From: Planctomycetia bacterium
GTDB lineage: Bacteria > Planctomycetota > Planctomycetia > Planctomycetales > Planctomycetaceae
Length of the DNA stretch: 44,036 nucleotides
Direction of reading: 5' to 3'
Assembly (NCBI GenBank): GCA_016200145.1
Contig: JACQFH010000273.1
Location: 1 to 44,036 of the forward strand
The position numbers and the translations under genes were made by a program. Below are positions 11,992-22,250 of this stretch, piece after piece. How positions within the stretch are numbered: position 1 is the stretch's first letter; every line of letters begins with the position of its first letter. Under the pieces are notes generated by a model. It saw only the letters and a list, made by a program, of their open reading frames with translations, had not been told where the DNA came from and searched no databases.

Positions 11992-13953
11992 ATGACGCCC
12001 GCGAATGTCGATCGCGAGCGACTCATTCGCTGCTGCCGGCAGGTGCGCGAAACCCTTCTCGCAGAGCGCACTTCGTCGGGGAACTGGGAAGGCGAGCTGT
12101 CGGCCTCGGCACTTTCGACAGCCACCGCCGTCATGGCGCTGGAAATGGTCCGGCGAGCGTCGGACGTGAGTTCGACGGTGCAACCGCCGAAACTTGCGGC
12201 TCCCCACAGCGACGCGCACCCGGGGACTTACGTCCCCGGCTCGCAGAGAAGCGTCACGGGGGGAGAGGAACTCATTGCACGCGGGATCGAGTGGCTCGCC
12301 GGGCGGCAGAATTCCGACGGTGGCTGGGGAGACACGACGCGCAGTGTCAGCAACATCTCGACGACGATGCTGTGCCACGCCGCGTTTCATGCGACCGGAT
12401 CGGCGAGTCGATTTGAAACGGTCGTCAACGCGGCAGCAGCGTACATCGACAAAGCCGGCGGCGTCGCCGCACTTCGCGCCCGCTACGGAAAAGACAAGAC
12501 GTTTTCGATCCCCATCCTCACCCATTGCGCGCTGGCCGGGCTGGTCGATTGGCGCGATGTCGCGCCGCTTCCGTTCGAGCTGGCCTGCATTCCCGCCCAA
12601 TTTTACAAATGGGCTCGCCTGCCCGTCGTGAGCTATGCGCTTCCCGCGCTGATCGCCATCGGCCAGGTGCGGCATCATTTCGTGAAACCCTGGAACCCGC
12701 TGGTACGGATCATTCGCGGCCTGGCGATCGAAAGATGCCTGGCGATTCTGGAAAAAATTCAGCCTGCCAGCGGAGGCTTTCTCGAAGCCACGCCACTGAC
12801 AAGTTTCGTCACCATGAGCCTCGCGGGAATGGGACGGGCCGACCACCCGGTCGCGCGGAATGGTGCCGCATTTCTGAAGCGCTCGGCCCGGCCGGACGGC
12901 AGTTGGCCCATCGACACCAATCTGGCGACGTGGGTGACAACGCTATCGATCAACGCGCTGGGAAGCGACCTTCCCCGCGATGCGATCGGCGCGCTGCGCG
13001 ACTGGCTGCTGGGGCAGCAGTATCGAGTCGTACACCCCTACACGAATGCCGACCCTGGCGGCTGGGCGTGGACTAATCTTCCAGGGGGCGTTCCTGATGC
13101 CGACGACACCCCGGGGGCGATCCTGGCGCTGCTGAATCTCGAACATCAACGCGGCGTGGAGGACGGACCTGCCTTAACCGAACGCAAATTGGCCGATACC
13201 GGCGACCCAGTTGCTTCGGCTCTTGAATCGGCCGTGGATTGGCTGCTTGACTTGCAGAACGGCGACGGCGGCTGGCCGACTTTTTGCCGGGGGTGGGGCA
13301 CGCTTCCATTCGACCGCAGCGCTCCGGATCTGACGGCCCACGCACTGCGAGCGCTGGGGCGGTGGACTGATGGGCGCACTGCTGGCTCGGCATCGAATGG
13401 CCCCGAGTCGTCGTCGCCGCGGATCCATCGCCGCACCCGCCGATGCCGCCGTGCCATCATGCTTGGGTTCGAATACCTGAGCAAAGCCCAGCGGGACAAC
13501 GGGTCATGGCTTCCACTGTGGTTCGGCAACCAGCACGCGGCCGACGATGAGAACCCGACTTATGGAACGGCCCGGGTCCTGGCGGCGTATCGAGACGCCG
13601 GACGCATCGGTGATCCAGCCTGCAGCAAGGGTCTGGGATGGCTCTGCCGTACCCAGAACCCTGACGGCGGCTGGGGTGGCGCCGCGGGAATTTTGTCGAG
13701 CACGGAAGAAACCTCACTGGCTGTTGAGGTGTTGGTATCGCTGGAGGCAGATGGCGATGAAGCCTCGGAATCGGCTGGCCGCGGCGTGAACTGGCTATTG
13801 GATCGATTCGATCAAGGGAAATTGATGGAACCGTCGCCAATCGGCTTTTATTTTGCTAAGCTGTGGTACTTTGAGAAACTTTACCCTCTGATTTTCGCAA
13901 CCGCCGCGCTCAGGCGCGCGGTCGAGAAGGGTTGGTCTGCGCCGCGTCCATAG
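11992..13953 (+). CDS. Class II triterpene cyclase family protein (squalene-hopene cyclase-like)
   Basis: The 653-residue length fits squalene-hopene cyclases. The catalytic acid motif DxDD is present as D369-A-D371-D372 in GGVPDADDTPGA, which protonates a terminal double bond and starts ring formation. QW-type repeats are visible at Q106 (QNSDGGWG), Q422 (QNGDGGWP) and Q555 (QNPDGGWGG), with looser ones elsewhere, giving the double alpha-barrel. A hydrophobic part around 200-235 could touch the membrane. Two stretches look like insertions: about residues 65-85, where a palindromic repeat is read in frame, and about 458-487, which is Arg/Ser-rich. The next gene encodes a prenyl synthase, so the substrate may be a polyprenyl compound other than squalene. 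Ribosome site aaggac before ATG 11992. Confidence 0.85.
   Translation: MTPANVDRERLIRCCRQVRETLLAERTSSGNWEGELSASALSTATAVMALEMVRRASDVSSTVQPPKLAAPHSDAHPGTYVPGSQRSVTGGEELIARGIEWLAGRQNSDGGWGDTTRSVSNISTTMLCHAAFHATGSASRFETVVNAAAAYIDKAGGVAALRARYGKDKTFSIPILTHCALAGLVDWRDVAPLPFELACIPAQFYKWARLPVVSYALPALIAIGQVRHHFVKPWNPLVRIIRGLAIERCLAILEKIQPASGGFLEATPLTSFVTMSLAGMGRADHPVARNGAAFLKRSARPDGSWPIDTNLATWVTTLSINALGSDLPRDAIGALRDWLLGQQYRVVHPYTNADPGGWAWTNLPGGVPDADDTPGAILALLNLEHQRGVEDGPALTERKLADTGDPVASALESAVDWLLDLQNGDGGWPTFCRGWGTLPFDRSAPDLTAHALRALGRWTDGRTAGSASNGPESSSPRIHRRTRRCRRAIMLGFEYLSKAQRDNGSWLPLWFGNQHAADDENPTYGTARVLAAYRDAGRIGDPACSKGLGWLCRTQNPDGGWGGAAGILSSTEETSLAVEVLVSLEADGDEASESAGRGVNWLLDRFDQGKLMEPSPIGFYFAKLWYFEKLYPLIFATAALRRAVEKGWSAPRP
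12220..12239. repeat. Palindrome inside the cyclase gene
   Basis: ccggggac-ttac-gtccccgg is a perfect 8-bp stem within codons 77-83 of the cyclase. The translated piece HPGTYVPGSQ lies in a stretch without family character between two conserved regions, so the repeat probably inserted in frame. Confidence 0.75.
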
Positions 13954-14015: not shown

Positions 14016-15917
14016 TTGACGATTTCTGCCAATGGGTTCGACGGCCACGAGGCGGAAGGCGCCGCGACGCTCGCCGGCCCCGCAGCCGAATTCGAATCCG
14101 GATCACGCGACGTCGAAACCGATCCCGATCCTGTTCCGCGCAAGCGCGAAAAGGTGCGTCGCAGCACGAGCCACCTGAAGGCCGTTCCCGAGACGCTCGT
14201 GCATCGCGAGAAGCTCAAGACGGCGGCCGAAAACTACGCCCGCCCGCTCGACAAGAGCCAGCCCTTCTCCAAAGATGAGCTGGAGTCCCACGGACGCAAG
14301 TTGCTGGCCGAGTTAGGCGAGCCCGAGAAGTTCCTCGGTTTCATGATGGTGATGATCGGGAACTTCTTCTGGAAGCAGCAGTTTTTGACGATCCCCTATC
14401 ACCGGCGTATGCTGCTGTTGCCGCACTGCCTGAAGCACGCCGAAGGCTGCCCGGCCGATTACGACGAATTCGGCCTCGACTGCGAAAAATGCGGCGCGTG
14501 CTCGATCGCCGATTACAAAGTCCGCGCGGAGCAGCTCGGCTACAAGGTGCTGGTGGCCGAAGGATCGCCGATTGTCCTCAAAATCATCGTCTCGGGGCAC
14601 ATCGACGGCATTCTGGGCGTGGCGTGCCTGAACGTCCTCGAAAAGGCGATCGACAAAGTGCTGATCGCCGGCGTCCCCTCGTATGCTGTCCCCCTGCATT
14701 CTGGCGACTGCAAGAGCACGACCCTTGACGAATCATGGGTCTGGGACGTGCTGGAAAAATACGAAGAACCGCAGGCGACCCCCACGACCAGCTACGTGCC
14801 GCTGATGCGCAGCGCCAACGAGCTGTTCGACGTGCATTTCGACCGGCTGTTGCCGCGAGTCCGCAGCAAGGGCGTGCCCGGCGACCTCGAATCGGCGCTG
14901 TCGGCGACCGAAGCGATCGCCTACGACTGGCTGCGACACGGCGGAAAGCGGTTCCGCCCGTTCATCACTCTGGCGGCGTACGATGCGGCCAAAGGCGGTT
15001 CGGCGGCTGCGGCCGGTTCGGGGAGCGCCGCGCCGGCATTTCCCGATACCGTCAGCCGCGTGGCGATGGCGATCGAGGCGTTCCACAAGGCCTCGCTCGT
15101 TCACGACGACATCGAAGATGACGACCTGTATCGCTACGGACGGGAAACGCTGCACCGTCGCTACGGATTGGGCACGGCGATCAATGTGGGAGACCATCTG
15201 ATCGGCCTGGGGTATCGTCTGGTGACTTCGATCCGCGGCGAAGCCGGGGCTGAGGCCGCCGCCGACATCGCCGACCGCATGGCCGCCGCACACGTCAAAC
15301 TGTGCGATGGGCAGGGAGCCGAGATGCACTGGCACGAGTCTCCCGGCCAGATGCTGAAGCCGATCGACGCACTGCAGATCTACGCGCTGAAAACATCTCC
15401 GGCCTTCGAAGCGGCCCTGTACGCCGGACTGAGACTGGCCGGCCCCATTGCCCCCTACGAAGACATGGTTCCGGTCTTTGCCCGGCATCTGGGCGTGGGC
15501 TTTCAGATCCTGAACGACCTCAAGGACTGGCAGGGGGACGACAACAACAAGCTGGTCGCCGGCCAGGACGCGCTGTCGATGCGGCCCACGCTGCTCTTGG
15601 CACTGGCGTTCGAAGCGGCGACGCCCGCACAGCGGGTCGAACTCAACGCGATCGTCGCCGACCGGGAATCGGAAGCCCTGCGGACCGGGCGCCTGCGGCG
15701 CATCTTCGAGCAGTGCGGTGTGTTCGAGAAAGCCCAAACGCTGGTCGAAAAGTCGCGTGCCCGGGCCGAGGCATTGGCTGACGAAGTGCAGCCCGACTCG
15801 CTGCGCCAGCTCATGTACTTCCTGGTCGACATGGTGCTGGCTCCCGAAACGGAAGAGCCCGCGATCGCCTCCGCCGGTTCGCCGCTGGTTTCGCTGCCCG
15901 TCGTCGCCGCGACCTGA
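14016..15917 (+). CDS. DUF116 domain fused to a polyprenyl diphosphate synthase
   Basis: The start is TTG 14016, set by ggaaggag six bases upstream. Residues 1-80 are charged and disordered-looking. About 85-250 is a DUF116-like domain with seven cysteines (C138, C145, C156, C159, C162, C204, C232) arranged to bind metal or an Fe-S cluster. About 260-600 is a trans-prenyl synthase: GGKRFRP (309-315), first Asp-rich motif DDIEDDD (364-370), and a second motif at 500-504 that reads NDLKD, with Asn for the first Asp. The usual RRG after the first motif is RYG. Ala359 and Ser360, five and four residues before the motif, are small, which fits products of C20 or longer and argues against FPP. It follows the cyclase by 62 bases. 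Confidence 0.85.
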
Positions 15918-16074: not shown

Positions 16075-17544
16075 ATGAAAAACTCAATTCTCCGTGGGGT
16101 CACATTAGTATGGGTGCTGCTGGCGTTCGCCTCGGTGGCCGCGCCGGCTTACGCCGCTGAGTTCAGGGCGGGGGCGTTTGCGCAGCCGATTACGCCGACG
16201 AAGTTCCCGGCCCCCGTGAACGGCAACATGAAAGGGGCGTTCGCCAAGGACGTGCACGACCCGATGCACGCCCGTTGTCTGGCCCTCTTCGACGGCAAGA
16301 CCGAGCTGGTGTTCTGCATCGTCGATGCCTGCCTCATTCCCCGCGACATCTGCGAAAGGACCAAACAGATTGCGTCAGAGAAGACGGGAATCCCCGCCGC
16401 ACACATCCTGATCTCCGCCACCCACACGCACTCGGCCGCCGCGATGACGCCCGCCTTCCAGAGCGATCCCGATCCCGAATACGTCGCCGCGCTCCCCGAA
16501 CGCATCGCACAGGGCATCGTGCAGGCGCACGCCAATCTGGAACCTGCCGAGATCGGGTGGGGCCTGGGGAAAGATCCGACGCAGCTCTTCAACCGCCGCT
16601 GGTTCGTCAAGGAAGGAGAGACTTACGAGAATCCATTCGGCAGCAAGGCCGACCGCGCGCGGATGAATCCCGGTTATCAGAATCCCGCCGTGACGAAATC
16701 GATCGGCCCCGTCGACCCGACGGTGGCCGTGCTGGCTGTGCGTTCTTCCACCGACAAGCGCCCGCTGGCGTTCTTCGCCAACTATGGCCTGCACTACGTG
16801 GGAGGCTATCCGGCGATTTCGGCCGATTACTTTGCGGCGTTCGCCGAGGAAATCGGCGCCCGCCTGAAGGCCGGCGACGCCCGTTACAAGAACAAACCGC
16901 CGTTCCTGGGCGCGATGACGAACGGTACGAGCGGAGACGTGAACAACGTCAACTTCGCCGGCCCGGCCCCCGGACCACGGCAGGCCGGAGAGCAGATTCT
17001 CGTCGTCGCCAAAAGCGTCGCCGAGGCGGCGATGAAGGCCTACGACCAGATTCAGTTCCGACCGCACGTCACGCTCGACGCACTGGCGGCCGACATCGAA
17101 CTGGCCGTACGCAAAGCCTCCCCCGAAGAATTGAAACGCGCCCGCGAAGTGCTCGAAACCACACCCAAAGATAACGACGGCCAGTATTCGAACCAGAGCG
17201 CCATCTACGCCCGCGAAGCAGTGCTGCTCGACGCCTATCCCGATCGCGTGCCGGTCAAGCTGCAGGCCTTGCGGATCGGCGATCTCAGCATCGCGGCGAT
17301 CCCGTGCGAGGTCTTCGTCGACATCGGGTTCGATCTGAAAAAACGCACTCCGTTCCGGCAGCACTTCACCGTGTCGCTCGCCAACGGTTACAACGGCTAC
17401 CTGCCGACCACCGAGCACCACCACTACGGCGGCTACGAAACCTGGCGCGCCCGCAGCAGCTACCTGGAAGTGGATGCCGCCGCGAAGATCACGACGCACC
17501 TGGCCGGTATGCTGGCGGAACTCCAAAAACGCGCGGGGCAGTAG
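16075..17544 (+). CDS. Secreted neutral/alkaline ceramidase-like hydrolase
   Basis: The 489-residue protein begins with a clear signal sequence (residues 1-28, ending APAYAA) and so is exported. The core resembles the catalytic domain of neutral ceramidases: ISATHTHSAAAM supplies H117 and H119, expected zinc ligands, and NGTSGDVNN and HYVGGYPAISADY match conserved blocks around the site. It lacks the C-terminal immunoglobulin-like domain of true ceramidases, and planctomycetes carry many such shorter paralogues. Ceramide hydrolysis is therefore only a family-level guess; another amide or ester is possible. ggaga precedes ATG 16075. The gene is convergent with the thioredoxin-type gene, with a small hairpin between them. 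Confidence 0.82.
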   Translation: MKNSILRGVTLVWVLLAFASVAAPAYAAEFRAGAFAQPITPTKFPAPVNGNMKGAFAKDVHDPMHARCLALFDGKTELVFCIVDACLIPRDICERTKQIASEKTGIPAAHILISATHTHSAAAMTPAFQSDPDPEYVAALPERIAQGIVQAHANLEPAEIGWGLGKDPTQLFNRRWFVKEGETYENPFGSKADRARMNPGYQNPAVTKSIGPVDPTVAVLAVRSSTDKRPLAFFANYGLHYVGGYPAISADYFAAFAEEIGARLKAGDARYKNKPPFLGAMTNGTSGDVNNVNFAGPAPGPRQAGEQILVVAKSVAEAAMKAYDQIQFRPHVTLDALAADIELAVRKASPEELKRAREVLETTPKDNDGQYSNQSAIYAREAVLLDAYPDRVPVKLQALRIGDLSIAAIPCEVFVDIGFDLKKRTPFRQHFTVSLANGYNGYLPTTEHHHYGGYETWRARSSYLEVDAAAKITTHLAGMLAELQKRAGQ

Positions 17545-17624: not shown

Positions 17625-18758
17625 TTACTTCTTGCTCGCATACGTTTTGCCCAACGCATTCGAGATCTCGCTCTTCAGGTCGGCGGGTTTGATTTCGTCC
17701 TTCCAGCGGTGGACGATTTTGCCGCCGGGGGCGATCAGCAGCGTGTAGGGGACGGGGCCTTCCCATTTGGGATCGATCAGCTCGGCGAGTTTGTCGCGGT
17801 CGTCGGTGTGGAAGATGTAGTTGGTGCACGAGACGTGGTGCTTTTCGAGCACCTTCCGGGCGATGTCTTTCCGCTCCGGCGGATCGATCGAGAGCGTGTA
17901 CATCTCGAAATGCCGGCCGCGGTACATGCGGTTGATGGTCACAAATTCGGGAAACTCCGTGACGCACGGGGCGCAGGTCGTCGACCACAGATTGATCAGC
18001 CGGTATTTTTCGGTCTTGTTCTCCGCCAGATCGCGCAGGGCCGTTTCGTCGATCGATTTGAGCGCGACCGGCTCGGCATTCCATTTCTCGATCGACTCGC
18101 GGGCGCTGTCGCGCTTGTCGGCCCATTTCGTCGAACAGCCGAAGACGCGGGTCTTCGCCACGCGCACGTCGCGCCCGGCCAGCACGTCGTCGATGGCATT
18201 GCGGGCGTCGTGCGATTTCGGCTCGGCCGTTTCGGCGTCGTCGATCCGGCCGTTGTAGCGCAGCTTGCGTTCGCGGTCGAAAATGTACACGTGCGGCGTG
18301 GCCAGCACACCGTACGCCGTCGAAACGCGCTGCGTTTCGCCGTCGTACAGATAGGGAAATTTGAAGCCGCGGCGCTCGGCGTGGCGTTTCATGTCGTCGA
18401 ATGAATCGCCCAGATCCGTATAGCCCAGCTCGTCGAGCCTGACCGCCAGCGGATCGTTCGGGGAGACCGCGACGAGGGCCACCCCTTTGTCGCGGTAGTC
18501 GGCGTGCAGGCGGATGATTCGTTCTTCGTAGGCCTGGGCGGTGGGGCAGTGATTGCAGGTGAAGACCACGACCAGGACTTTCGCGCCAGCGAAATCGGCA
18601 AGCCGGTACGTATTATTGTCGACACCCGGCAGATTCAGTTCGGGTGCCGCTGCGCCGATCGCCAGGGTTTCAACGTCTTTCGCCATGCCCGACGAGGTGG
18701 CGAGCCCGAGATAGCAGGTGATCAGGGAAAGTCGCAGAGCAAAACAACGGCAAGACAT
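17625..18758 (-). CDS. Exported protein with two thioredoxin-fold domains
   Basis: The 377-residue protein starts at ATG 18758 after aaggag, with a hydrophobic N-terminus (to about residue 25) that directs export. Domain one (about 32-195) is AhpC/TSA-like with C68-N-H-C71 and a cis-proline in ATPHVYIF. Domain two (about 235-377) is TlpA/ResA-like with C262-A-P-C265 in LINLWSTTCAPCVTEFP. Each domain therefore has its own CxxC pair. The protein probably handles disulfides or peroxide in the periplasm. Planctomycetes carry many redoxin fusions, and partners such as cytochrome maturation factors are not nearby. The gene is divergent from the MarR gene, so the 169-base region between them serves both. 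Confidence 0.87.
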   Translation of the reverse strand: MSCRCFALRLSLITCYLGLATSSGMAKDVETLAIGAAAPELNLPGVDNNTYRLADFAGAKVLVVVFTCNHCPTAQAYEERIIRLHADYRDKGVALVAVSPNDPLAVRLDELGYTDLGDSFDDMKRHAERRGFKFPYLYDGETQRVSTAYGVLATPHVYIFDRERKLRYNGRIDDAETAEPKSHDARNAIDDVLAGRDVRVAKTRVFGCSTKWADKRDSARESIEKWNAEPVALKSIDETALRDLAENKTEKYRLINLWSTTCAPCVTEFPEFVTINRMYRGRHFEMYTLSIDPPERKDIARKVLEKHHVSCTNYIFHTDDRDKLAELIDPKWEGPVPYTLLIAPGGKIVHRWKDEIKPADLKSEISNALGKTYASKK

Positions 18759-18857
18759 GATCGGCTCCTTGAGGGGCAGAATGACGATCGATCGCCCTGT
18801 TGAAGATACCGAGGGGTCGCACAGTTCGCGACCGACGTTGAACAGGGCCACGGATGA

Positions 18858-18877
18858 GTCAGACTGGAAAGCCTGAC
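18858..18877. repeat. Imperfect palindrome GTCAGACT-GGAA-AGCCTGAC
   Basis: Eight-base arms match at seven positions. It resembles a dispersed repeat type known to me from planctomycetes and lies 8 bases before the MarR operator. Confidence 0.5.
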
Positions 18878-18885
18878 CTACTAAT

Positions 18886-18915
18886 AGTTGTCTGGACAAC
18901 TGTTGTCTGGATGAC
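18886..18915 (+). promoter_or_regulatory. Tandem operator of the MarR regulator
   Basis: AGTTGTC-TG-GACAACT (18886-18901) is a perfect 7-bp palindrome of the kind bound by MarR dimers. It is followed at once by a second, less perfect copy TGTTGTC-TG-GATGAC (18901-18915) on the same 15-base period. The pair ends 12 bases before the MarR start codon, the expected place for autorepression. The divergent thioredoxin-type gene could share it. Confidence 0.75.
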
Positions 18916-18927
18916 TATCATGGAGGC

Positions 18928-19419
18928 ATGACGACGCTCACTCCCCGACAGTCGCGAGGCCAGAGACGGTTCGATTCGCTCGAACAGGAGGCATTTCTCA
19001 ACCTGTGGCGGACGTACGACCGCCTGAAGGCGCAGGAAGACGAGCTGTTTGCCCGCTACGACCTGACGCCCCAGCAGTACAACGCGCTGCGGCTGCTGAA
19101 GGCCGAGCATCCGCGGCCGATCCGCACGCTCGACCTTGCCGCACGGCTTGTGTCGCGCGCTCCGGACATCACGCGACTCGTCGACCGGCTTGAACAGCGG
19201 GGGCTGATCGCCCGCGACCGCCCGGCCGACAACCGCCGCGTCGTGTGCCTGGCCATCACCGAGGCCGGGATGGCCCTGCTCCGCGAGCTGAAAAAGCCAA
19301 TCGCCGAGTGCCACGCCCGGCAGCTCGGGCACCTGACGGCCAGGCAACTGCAGGAACTGGTGGCGCTGCTTAAAGCGGCCCGCGGGCCGCACGAGGCCGA
19401 CGAGAGCATGTGGTCGTAA
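18928..19419 (+). CDS. MarR-family transcriptional regulator
   Basis: This 163-residue winged-helix regulator represses target promoters until a small ligand or oxidation releases it. The fold is visible as LTPQQYNALRLLKAEHPRPIRTLDLAARL (helices before the recognition helix), APDITRLVDRLEQRGLIARDRPADNRRVVCLAITEAG (recognition helix and wing, with the typical DRLExxGLIxRxxxxxDRR pattern), and a C-terminal dimerisation helix. No cysteine is present, so direct thiol sensing is unlikely. The ribosome site tggagg is only one base from ATG 18928, which is unusually tight, and there is no better in-frame start. It lies upstream of the flavoprotein and antiporter genes, the likely targets. Confidence 0.93.
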   Translation: MTTLTPRQSRGQRRFDSLEQEAFLNLWRTYDRLKAQEDELFARYDLTPQQYNALRLLKAEHPRPIRTLDLAARLVSRAPDITRLVDRLEQRGLIARDRPADNRRVVCLAITEAGMALLRELKKPIAECHARQLGHLTARQLQELVALLKAARGPHEADESMWS

Positions 19420-19455
19420 AGGGCGAATGACGAAAATCAATTGTCTAAGGAAACC

Positions 19456-19483
19456 TGAAATCCGAAATCCCAATTCCGAAATT
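19456..19483. repeat. GGATTTCGG-type repeat between MarR and flavoprotein genes
   Basis: The sequence is aaatccgaaatcc-caattccgaaatt, the reverse orientation of the copies at 605 and 5104. It fills most of the 84-base gap and is therefore inside the presumed MarR-flavoprotein transcript. Confidence 0.55.
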
Positions 19484-19503
19484 GACAGAGGATCAGTTCC
19501 CTG

Positions 19504-20823
19504 ATGAACACCACGAATCCAGAACTTGACGTCATCGTCATCGGCGGGGGGCCGGCCGGCAGCACGGTCTCGACGCTCATTGCCCAGCGCGGGCACCGCG
19601 TCGAGCTGTTCGAGCGCGAGCGGTTTCCGCGCTTTCACATCGGCGAATCGCTGATCCCCGAAACGTACTGGGTGCTCGAGCGGCTGAAAATGCTCGACAA
19701 GATGAAGAACAGCCACTTTGTCAAGAAATTCAGCGTGCAGTTCGTGAGCGCCAAGGGCAAGCTCTCGGCCCCGTTTTATTTCTGGGACAACAAGCCCCAC
19801 GAGTGCTCGCAAACCTGGCAGGTCGTTCGCAGCGAGTGGGACCTGATGATGCTCAACAACGCCCGTGAGCAGGGAGTTTCGGTCCACGAAGGCACGCGCG
19901 TGCTCGACGTGCTGTTTGACGGCAATCGGGCTGTGGGCGTCAGGGTGCAGCACGAAGACGGTTCGCAGCGCGAGGTGCGCGCCAAGGTCGTCGTCGACGC
20001 CAGCGGGCAGAGCGCGATGCTCCAGAACCGCTTCAAGCTCCGCACCTGGGACCCGGTTCTCAACAAGGGGGCGGTCTGGACTTACTGGGAAGGAGCCTAC
20101 CGCGACACGGGGCGCGACGAAGGGGCCACGATCGTCATTCAGACGCCGAGCAAGCAGGGCTGGTTCTGGTACATTCCGCTCCACAACAACACCGTCAGCC
20201 TGGGGGTGGTCGCGCCGTTTGATTACCTGTTCAAGGGGCGCGGCAGTCACGAGCAGATCTACAACGAAGAAGTCGATCTCTGCCCGGCGGTGAAAGAACG
20301 CATCGCCAACGCAACCCGTAAGACGGGATACTTCGCAACAAAGGACTATTCGTATCGCTCGAGGCAGGTGGCCGGCGACGGTTGGGTACTCATCGGCGAC
20401 GCGTTCGGCTTTCTCGATCCGCTCTATTCATCGGGTGTGTTGCTGGCCCTTAAGTCAGGTGAACTGGCCGCAGACGCGATCGCTGACGGATTGGCCAAAG
20501 GCGACGTCTCTGCGGCGCAGCTTGGTCACTGGGGCCCCCTGTTCAACCAGGGAGTCGACCGCATGCGGCGCCTCGTGTGCGAGTACTACGACGGCTTCAG
20601 CTTTGGAAAATTCGTGAAGAATTTCCCAGATCTCAAGGGGATCATCACCGACCTGCTCATCGGCGACCTGTTCACCGAGCGCGTTGACAAAGCCTGGCAG
20701 CCAATGGAATCGCTCTATCCGCCCGAGAGGAAACCGATCCCGCCCTGGTCGGCCGACGCCCCTGCCGAGGTGGCGCAGAACAAGCTGAACGAACTGTATC
20801 TGCCGGCCGGGCCGAAACCGTGA
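19504..20823 (+). CDS. FAD-dependent oxidoreductase with halogenase-type motifs
   Basis: The 439-residue protein opens with the FAD Rossmann motif G14-x-G16-x-x-G19 (VIGGGPAGS) and ERERFPRFHIGESLIP, then a GD motif GWVLIGDAFGFLDP. Two features point to the flavin-dependent halogenase branch. WFWYIP at 220-225 is a WxWxIP motif, and FLDPLYSSG at 303-311 matches the FxDPxxSxG block. Lysines 74-75 sit near the place of the halogenase lysine, but that needs an alignment. Many bacterial proteins annotated as halogenases or geranylgeranyl reductases share these blocks and have unknown substrates, so halogenation is a hypothesis. The antiporter start overlaps its stop by 4 bp, and a MarR gene lies upstream. 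Confidence 0.85.
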   Translation: MNTTNPELDVIVIGGGPAGSTVSTLIAQRGHRVELFERERFPRFHIGESLIPETYWVLERLKMLDKMKNSHFVKKFSVQFVSAKGKLSAPFYFWDNKPHECSQTWQVVRSEWDLMMLNNAREQGVSVHEGTRVLDVLFDGNRAVGVRVQHEDGSQREVRAKVVVDASGQSAMLQNRFKLRTWDPVLNKGAVWTYWEGAYRDTGRDEGATIVIQTPSKQGWFWYIPLHNNTVSLGVVAPFDYLFKGRGSHEQIYNEEVDLCPAVKERIANATRKTGYFATKDYSYRSRQVAGDGWVLIGDAFGFLDPLYSSGVLLALKSGELAADAIADGLAKGDVSAAQLGHWGPLFNQGVDRMRRLVCEYYDGFSFGKFVKNFPDLKGIITDLLIGDLFTERVDKAWQPMESLYPPERKPIPPWSADAPAEVAQNKLNELYLPAGPKP

Positions 20824-22250
20824 CCGCACCGACTGACGACGCGTCGATTCATCCCGCGGCAGGCAACGGGCTTCGTGACTGGCTCGTCTACGCGGCCATG
20901 CTGGCTGTGGCAATCGGAATTTTCTTCGCGATCGATTTCTGCGGTGTGCGGCTGACGGCGCCCGAGGGAACGGGCGCGGGGCTGAATACCGGTGGCGCCG
21001 GGGTTTCATCGTCCGAGGCGCTGATGCACGTTCTGGTGGCGCTGGGCGCGGTGCTGATCGCCGGGCGGCTGCTGGGGATCGGATTTCGATATGTTGGCCA
21101 ACCGCCGGTGATCGGCGAAGTTGTCGCTGGCATCTTGCTGGGCCCGTCGCTCCTGGGACGCGTCTGGCCGGACGCGGCGGCGTTTCTGCTGCCCACGACG
21201 GTCGCGCCCCACCTGGGCATGATCGCCCAGCTCGGGGTCGTGCTCTACATGTTTCTCGTCGGCTTGGAGCTCAATCCGGAGCTCTTGCGCGAGCGGGCCC
21301 GTTCGACGATTGCCATCTCGCACGCTAGCATCGTGGCGCCATTTCTGATGGGGACAGGGCTCGCCCTGTATCTCTATCCGCGCCTGTCGACAAGCGACGT
21401 GCCCTTCACGAGCTTTGCGCTGTTCATGGGGGTGGCGCTGTCGATCACCGCCTTTCCGGTGCTGGCGAGGATCCTCACCGATCGGCAGATGCAAAAATCG
21501 CCACTGGGCGTCATCGCGCTGGGATGCGCCGCGACCGACGACGTCACGGCCTGGTGTCTTCTGGCGTTCGTGGTGGGCGTGGCGCAGGCTAAGGTCGGTG
21601 GAGCGTTCGTCGTGATCGGTTGCACGCTGGCTTACATCGCGTTCATGTTTCTCATCGCGCGACCGATCGCCACGCGGTATTTCCTGCGATTTGGCGAGCA
21701 CGACATCTCTGCGAACGTCGTGGCGCTCGTCCTGGCCCTGCTTTTGGGCTCGGCCCTGATCACCGAAGCAATCGGCATCCACGCGGTATTCGGCGCGTTT
21801 CTGCTGGGGGCCATCATTCCGCACGACAGTGCACTGGCCCGGGCCCTGACGACGCGGCTGGAAGACCTGGTGACAGTGCTGCTTCTGCCGGCGTTCTTCG
21901 CGTTCACTGGACTGCGGACGCAGATCGGCCTCGTCAGCGGGCTCGACCAATGGCTCTGGTGCGGACTGATCATCGTCGTCGCCACGGCCGGAAAATTCGG
22001 CGGGACTCTGGCGGCCGCGCGGCTCACGGGCCTGGGCTGGCGCGACGCGACGTCGCTGGGCCTCTTGATGAATACACGTGGGTTGATGGAGCTGATTGTC
22101 CTCAATATCGGGCTCGATCTGCGGGTCATTTCGCCGACACTGTTCGCGATGATGGTGCTGATGGCGCTCGTCACGACGATGACAACCTCGCCCCTGTTAC
22201 CCCGTGTCGCCGCGGCCGGCGAGCGGCGGCTGGGGCACCAACCTCTTTAG
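20820..22250 (+). CDS. Cation:proton antiporter (CPA2, KefB/NapA-like)
   Basis: The 476-residue inner-membrane protein has about 12 hydrophobic segments. Family blocks include GQPPVIGEVVAGILLGPSLLG, LGVVLYMFLVGLELNPELL, the ion-site pair in GCAATDDVTAW, IHAVFGAFLLGAIIP, and LMNTRGLMELIVLNIGLDL. It exchanges Na+ or K+ for protons. There is no C-terminal TrkA-type nucleotide domain, so it is shorter than KefB/KefC. GTG 20820 overlaps the flavoprotein stop (GTGA), which fixes the start and shows translational coupling. Coupling to a flavoprotein under MarR control suggests relief of a chemical or pH stress created by, or treated by, the flavoprotein. This is inference. Confidence 0.9.
   Translation: MTAPTDDASIHPAAGNGLRDWLVYAAMLAVAIGIFFAIDFCGVRLTAPEGTGAGLNTGGAGVSSSEALMHVLVALGAVLIAGRLLGIGFRYVGQPPVIGEVVAGILLGPSLLGRVWPDAAAFLLPTTVAPHLGMIAQLGVVLYMFLVGLELNPELLRERARSTIAISHASIVAPFLMGTGLALYLYPRLSTSDVPFTSFALFMGVALSITAFPVLARILTDRQMQKSPLGVIALGCAATDDVTAWCLLAFVVGVAQAKVGGAFVVIGCTLAYIAFMFLIARPIATRYFLRFGEHDISANVVALVLALLLGSALITEAIGIHAVFGAFLLGAIIPHDSALARALTTRLEDLVTVLLLPAFFAFTGLRTQIGLVSGLDQWLWCGLIIVVATAGKFGGTLAAARLTGLGWRDATSLGLLMNTRGLMELIVLNIGLDLRVISPTLFAMMVLMALVTTMTTSPLLPRVAAAGERRLGHQPL

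Follow-up and report, generated by a model that had tools for sequence, protein, structure and literature searches.

The window analysed here, 44,036 nt in length, is a whole contig (GenBank:JACQFH010000273.1) of an assembly from a bacterium of the class Planctomycetia, whose genome measures 8.28 Mb. On its plus strand, a palindrome overlapping a promoter is followed in order by genes for a MarR-family repressor (18928-19419), a halogenase-like flavoprotein (19504-20823) and a CPA2 antiporter (20820-22250). What is new here is that, elsewhere, the operon of this flavoprotein contains genes for a HemN-like radical S-adenosylmethionine (SAM) protein, a chorismate-lyase-like protein of the DUF98 fold, a YbgC-type thioesterase and often an aryl-CoA ligase. 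The features of the unit are as follows.

18886..18901, + strand: putative MarR operator, a perfect palindrome (AGTTGTC-TG-GACAACT; 7+7 inverted repeat, 16 bp), conserved 5′ of orthologous marR genes
18893..18921, + strand: sigma-70-type promoter, TGGACA-17-TATCAT (10/12 matches; 1 found vs a mean of 0.1 in shuffled sequences)
18902..18916, + strand: second, imperfect operator copy, GTTGTCTGGATGACT, from repeat analysis
18928..19419, + strand: MarR-family repressor, 163 aa (PF01047, E=1e-11)
19504..20823, + strand: flavin-dependent halogenase-like flavoprotein, 439 aa (best Pfam match PF04820, Trp_halogenase, E=1.5e-27)
19726..19728, + strand: codon of Lys75, aligned with the lysine of CndH, Mpy16 and FasV and invariant in 121/121 family members
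20161..20178, + strand: WxWxIP motif, W220-P225 (W220-F-W-Y-I-P), from the alignment of 121 members
20410..20436, + strand: FxDPxxSxG motif, F303-G311 (F303-L-D-P-L-Y-S-S-G), from the same alignment
20820..22250, + strand: CPA2 antiporter, 476 aa, NapA-like (PF00999, E=5e-59)

All elements listed in an original prediction made from the sequence of this region were found to be real and correctly placed. That prediction had taken the three genes for one MarR-controlled unit, and the comparison with relatives bore this out: the MarR orthologues lie directly 5′ of the flavoprotein gene on the same strand in 33 of 34 cases, and in all 20 loci having a CPA2 gene it is co-directional with the flavoprotein gene, in most of them as the downstream neighbour. 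Together with the conservation of the operator described below, this indicates that the grouping is more than chance. The trio as such fared less evenly, since the pair of MarR and enzyme is conserved more widely and the antiporter, present in 20 of 121 loci, is an optional rather than a fixed partner. The open reading frames (ORFs) of the flavoprotein and the antiporter share 4 bp (GTGA, 20820-20823), with GTG as the start codon of the latter; this overlap is ordinary in kind, and the spacing between the two genes differs among relatives.

The operator had been described as a tandem palindrome, which holds for the first copy, whereas the second is present in imperfect form, the two making up a 15-nt direct repeat (18887-18901 and 18902-18916) with 87% identity. 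The palindrome and the -35 box overlap. From the end of the -10 box to the ATG of marR there are 6 nt, which probably makes the marR mRNA leaderless. Alignment of the regions upstream of 34 orthologous marR genes, which left 31 other loci after removal of near-duplicates, revealed the operator with 16/16 matches in 9 and with at least 13/16 in 20 of these loci, a level reached by 0.03% of shuffled sequences. The geometry, in which the palindrome is followed after 14 nt by a TATNNT-like box and then within a few nt by the ATG, recurs in most of the marR relatives. The conserved operator is strong footprint evidence for local autoregulation, to which MarR would contribute by binding at this site. 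The palindromic 16-mer, with up to 2 mismatches allowed, occurs only once in the genome, and a genome-wide MarR regulon was rejected for this reason. On the opposite strand, an AhpC/TSA-type redoxin gene (17625-18899, - strand) would run into the operator if translation began at TTG 18899, the first start listed for it; a start at an internal ATG near 18758 seems more likely.

The repressor has a winged-helix MarR domain (PF01047), and the palindrome at its own promoter is supported by both position and conservation. In these two respects it is like HpaR and other aromatic-responsive MarR repressors; unlike them, it stays far below the cut-off of the HpaR equivalog model (55.8 bits vs 121.2) and has a conserved cysteine of its own. 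This residue, Cys128, is retained in 31 of 34 orthologues and stands beside a conserved His129 and near His135, making a thiol switch possible.

For the flavoprotein, the original prediction had named two halogenase motifs, and the alignment check of the halogenase lysine that it called for was run. Ten residues were invariant among the 121 family members, namely K75, W220, W222, I224, P225, F303, D305, P306, S309 and G311, and the FAD-binding GxGxxG motif was conserved as G14, G16 and G19. In pairwise alignments K75 pairs with the lysines of CndH, Mpy16 and FasV, which we take to be the catalytic lysine of the halogenase family. The best sequence matches in the PDB were likewise halogenases. 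An AlphaFold model with a pLDDT (predicted local distance difference test) of 92.7 gave FasV, PltA, ChlB4, Bmp2, Mpy16 and CndH as the best PDB matches, with query TM-scores of 0.78-0.84 for the first five. The flavoprotein is thus predicted to be a halogenase of the PltA/Bmp2/FasV/CndH type, and a plain geranylgeranyl reductase or other non-halogenase oxidoreductase was rejected as first choice in view of the invariant lysine, the motifs and these structural matches. With the order of genes conserved and the lysine present, the computable objections to the original prediction do not hold. PltA, Bmp2, Mpy16, ChlB4, FasV and CndH share with this enzyme the fold, the length, the FAD-binding motif, the lysine and both motifs, at ~28-33% identity. 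In contrast to them, it is not located beside a polyketide or peptide carrier cluster, is predicted to be MarR-regulated and is widely conserved, and its family is linked to chorismate-lyase-like and radical SAM genes.

The flavoprotein is conserved in most sampled families of the class and is also found in metagenome-assembled genomes of Acidobacteriota. Its neighbourhoods are of two kinds, one consisting of MarR and flavoprotein with or without CPA2, the other placing the flavoprotein inside a larger operon. In Planctomycetia, the fullest such operon comprises an iron-containing alcohol dehydrogenase (Fe-ADH), a BamB/pyrroloquinoline quinone (PQQ) propeller, the HemN-like radical SAM protein, a partner protein of ~185 aa here designated c4, the flavoprotein, a solute:sodium symporter (SSF), the YbgC-type thioesterase, an ATP-binding cassette (ABC) ATPase and an FtsX permease. 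In Acidobacteriota it contains radical SAM protein, c4, thioesterase, a PaaK-like ligase and flavoprotein, sometimes with CPA2 and a major facilitator superfamily transporter of the aromatic-acid type. An aryl-polyene or type II polyketide cluster, guessed for the wider operon from gene sizes, was rejected once its genes were identified as Fe-ADH, PQQ/BamB propeller, radical SAM protein and so on. In a quick tree with many open forks, the MarR-linked planctomycete enzymes and the acidobacterial enzymes linked to lyase and radical SAM genes share one supported part. The original prediction had further suggested a response to an aromatic compound, which is a conjectural point. Because the neighbours elsewhere are chorismate-lyase-like protein, aryl-CoA ligase, thioesterase and radical SAM protein, they point to the making or tailoring of an aromatic metabolite, rather than only a reaction to a foreign phenol.

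The partner c4 is encoded outside the window contig, and no Pfam or NCBIfam family matched it above cut-off. Its profile search found the DUF98 structure 2nwi, which also ranked first for its AlphaFold model (pLDDT 91.9), with Escherichia coli UbiC (1g81, 1jd3, 1fw9 and 1g1b) and UTRA domains lower; hhalign aligned c4 with UbiC as well. Arg74 and Glu172 are invariant, so that the chorismate lyase/DUF98 fold is accompanied by the conserved Arg and Glu. On the basis of the structural matches, the alignment and these two residues, c4 is called chorismate-lyase-like, and chorismate lyase activity is predicted for it.

Co-occurrence was examined in a phylum-wide sample of 246 planctomycete genomes, with a threshold of E<1e-60 for the flavoprotein. 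The gene for c4 was present in 37 and that for the flavoprotein in 55 of them; all 37 genomes with c4 had the flavoprotein, vs 18 of the 209 without it (Fisher p=1.2e-30, a value that ignores shared ancestry). As read from coordinates, c4 is located directly upstream of the flavoprotein on the same strand in 21 of the 37. Within Planctomycetia, both were present in 26 genomes and neither in 8. The radical SAM gene has the same distribution over families as these two, and two planctomycete families were seen to lack all three together.

In the window genome, c4 is located at the end of another contig, with thioesterase, ABC and FtsX genes after it. Another genome from this genus has an unbroken row of Fe-ADH, propeller, radical SAM protein, c4, thioesterase, ABC and FtsX genes; its flavoprotein gene is not part of this row but is found with MarR and CPA2 on a different contig. 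In this genus, therefore, the halogenase-like step is separate from that operon and has a putative switch of its own.

The antiporter has an Na_H_Exchanger domain with an Asp240-Asp241 pair, and its membrane domain is closest to NapA. Among 20 relatives the first aspartate is kept in 14 and the second in all. It is similar to the Na+/H+ antiporter NapA (4bwz) in both the CPA2 membrane domain and the aspartate pair, the difference being that 4 of the 20 relatives carry Gly-Asp for Asp-Asp. No C-terminal regulatory domain was found in this protein. Identity with KefB or KefC was rejected, as it scored 55 and 53 bits against cut-offs of 804 and 752 and is only 476 aa long.

Taken as a whole, the explanation that we favour with modest confidence is MarR-gated halogenation of a chorismate-derived aromatic, a step detached from a widespread pathway and placed under its own switch; the three genes would then form a MarR-autoregulated operon, a point covered by the same degree of confidence. 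MarR would bind the palindrome over the -35 box and repress all three genes, its own included, as suggested by position and conservation. Release would come from a ligand that is probably a metabolite of phenolic or electrophilic nature and is possibly sensed via Cys128. As expected from family, motifs and fold, the enzyme would use FADH2, O2 and halide to form hypohalous acid, steered by Lys75 onto an electron-rich aromatic. The substrate would most likely derive from 4-hydroxybenzoate made by the c4 partner, perhaps as a thioester, given that an aryl-CoA ligase and a hot-dog thioesterase accompany the enzyme elsewhere. The partners encoded by Fe-ADH, BamB/PQQ propeller, radical SAM, c4, thioesterase, ABC and FtsX genes have a different locus in the window genus, where the halogenase step would be under a MarR switch of its own. 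The weakest step is the last: the NapA-like antiporter would compensate for the proton or ion load that arises when the product is made or exported.

Several points weigh against this explanation. The lysine and motifs are no proof of halogenation, and 3nix, a flavoprotein of uncharacterised activity, fits the fold about equally and ranks among the halogenases. The same structure, the scores of QhpG-like and other non-halogenase models on the flavoprotein, and a distribution of the family that is unusually broad for halogenases and takes in taxa from freshwater and groundwater would suit an enzyme of this pathway that retains a halogenase architecture yet acts as a monooxygenase, for example as an aromatic hydroxylase, without halogenating; we consider this unlikely, as Lys75, WxWxIP and FxDPxxSxG never vary among the 121 members and the best solved matches are halogenases. 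The c4 family has its closest match in DUF98 and may no longer possess lyase activity, the flavoprotein family occurs without c4 in the 18 sampled genomes mentioned, and a search of the window assembly, where the contig breaks at that place, did not find the radical SAM partner (only a HemW-like 26% match), although the genome of the same genus has it. Moreover, with an operator unique in the genome, there is no visible sign that MarR also controls the partner operon.

This separation of the unit from the biosynthetic operon in the window genus, together with the local autoregulated operator, the conserved Cys128-His129 and the weak, sub-cut-off similarity of MarR to HpaR, is also what a stress or detoxification unit might display. 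There, MarR would sense a foreign phenol, quinone or hypohalous acid via Cys128, the flavoprotein would modify it, the antiporter would restore pH or ion balance, and the link to chorismate would be secondary in this lineage. Pure detoxification does not predict that the enzyme and c4 are always jointly present or absent in the sampled Planctomycetia, and we regard it as distinctly improbable. The low share of loci with CPA2 (many contigs being short) bears on the last step only. It is quite possible that the antiporter shares a transcript with the enzyme without any functional tie, which is compatible with the rest of the halogenation scheme and fits the variable spacing; its constant orientation and mostly adjacent downstream position in both Planctomycetota and Acidobacteriota argue against such a passenger role.

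Two further genes of the window belong to families that adjoin the chorismate-lyase-like gene in other planctomycetes and are possible partners.

11992..13953, + strand: squalene-hopene-cyclase-like protein
14016..15917, + strand: DUF116-polyprenyl synthase fusion

Elsewhere, GcvH-like, ferredoxin, radical SAM and chorismate-lyase-like genes accompany this pair, and the fusion is present in 48 of 59 relatives. A conserved planctomycete cluster, seen at six loci, comprises AMP-ligase-like protein, aldehyde dehydrogenase, Fe-ADH, BamB/PQQ propeller, HemN-like radical SAM, GcvH-like, ferredoxin-like and cyclase-like proteins, the DUF116-polyprenyl synthase and chorismate-lyase-like protein. In the sister genome the pair is not seen beside the MarR unit, and its closeness to that unit in the window is suggestive only. 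The protein encoded at 16075-17544 has a weak match to the N-terminal domain of neutral/alkaline ceramidase.

In the bmp pathway of marine bacteria, the chorismate lyase Bmp6 works with the brominase Bmp5. The system described here is similar in pairing a (predicted) chorismate lyase function with a flavin-dependent halogenase, and its flavoprotein resembles Bmp2 in fold; it differs in that DUF98 is the nearest family of the lyase-like protein and that the usual neighbours are radical SAM, thioesterase, ABC and FtsX genes. As a rule, flavin-dependent halogenases are dispersed among strain-specific natural-product clusters, whereas here one halogenase-like subfamily goes along with c4 and radical SAM genes in entire planctomycete families, a pattern suggestive of a conserved, undescribed aromatic metabolite in planctomycetes. 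In the literature, searched mostly outside subscription papers, no description of a MarR-flavoprotein-CPA2 unit was found. Type III polyketide synthase genes of planctomycetes are adjoined by an FAD oxidoreductase (PMC10896814). A 2025 review lists 3,5-dibromo-p-anisic acid (strain 10988) and alichondrichlorin (Alienimonas chondri) among halogenated planctomycete compounds and reports the biosynthesis genes of the latter as unknown (PMC12078418). Both are halogenated, contain a 4-hydroxybenzoate-type part and come from the same phylum (PMC12078418); in alichondrichlorin, unlike the product expected here, the chlorine sits on a fatty acid.

The unit supplies candidate genes for planctomycete halogenated compounds with genes reported as unknown (PMC12078418), and its sharply conserved operator makes the regulation easily testable. 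It is conceivable, albeit doubtful, that large parts of Planctomycetota and some Acidobacteriota carry a core-like pathway to a halogenated chorismate-derived aromatic, composed of HemN-like radical SAM protein, DUF98-type chorismate lyase, thioesterase, halogenase and exporter, and that many lineages gate the halogenase step separately through a MarR sensor containing a cysteine. If this is true, halogenation would be part of routine metabolism in these bacteria rather than of sporadic secondary metabolism.

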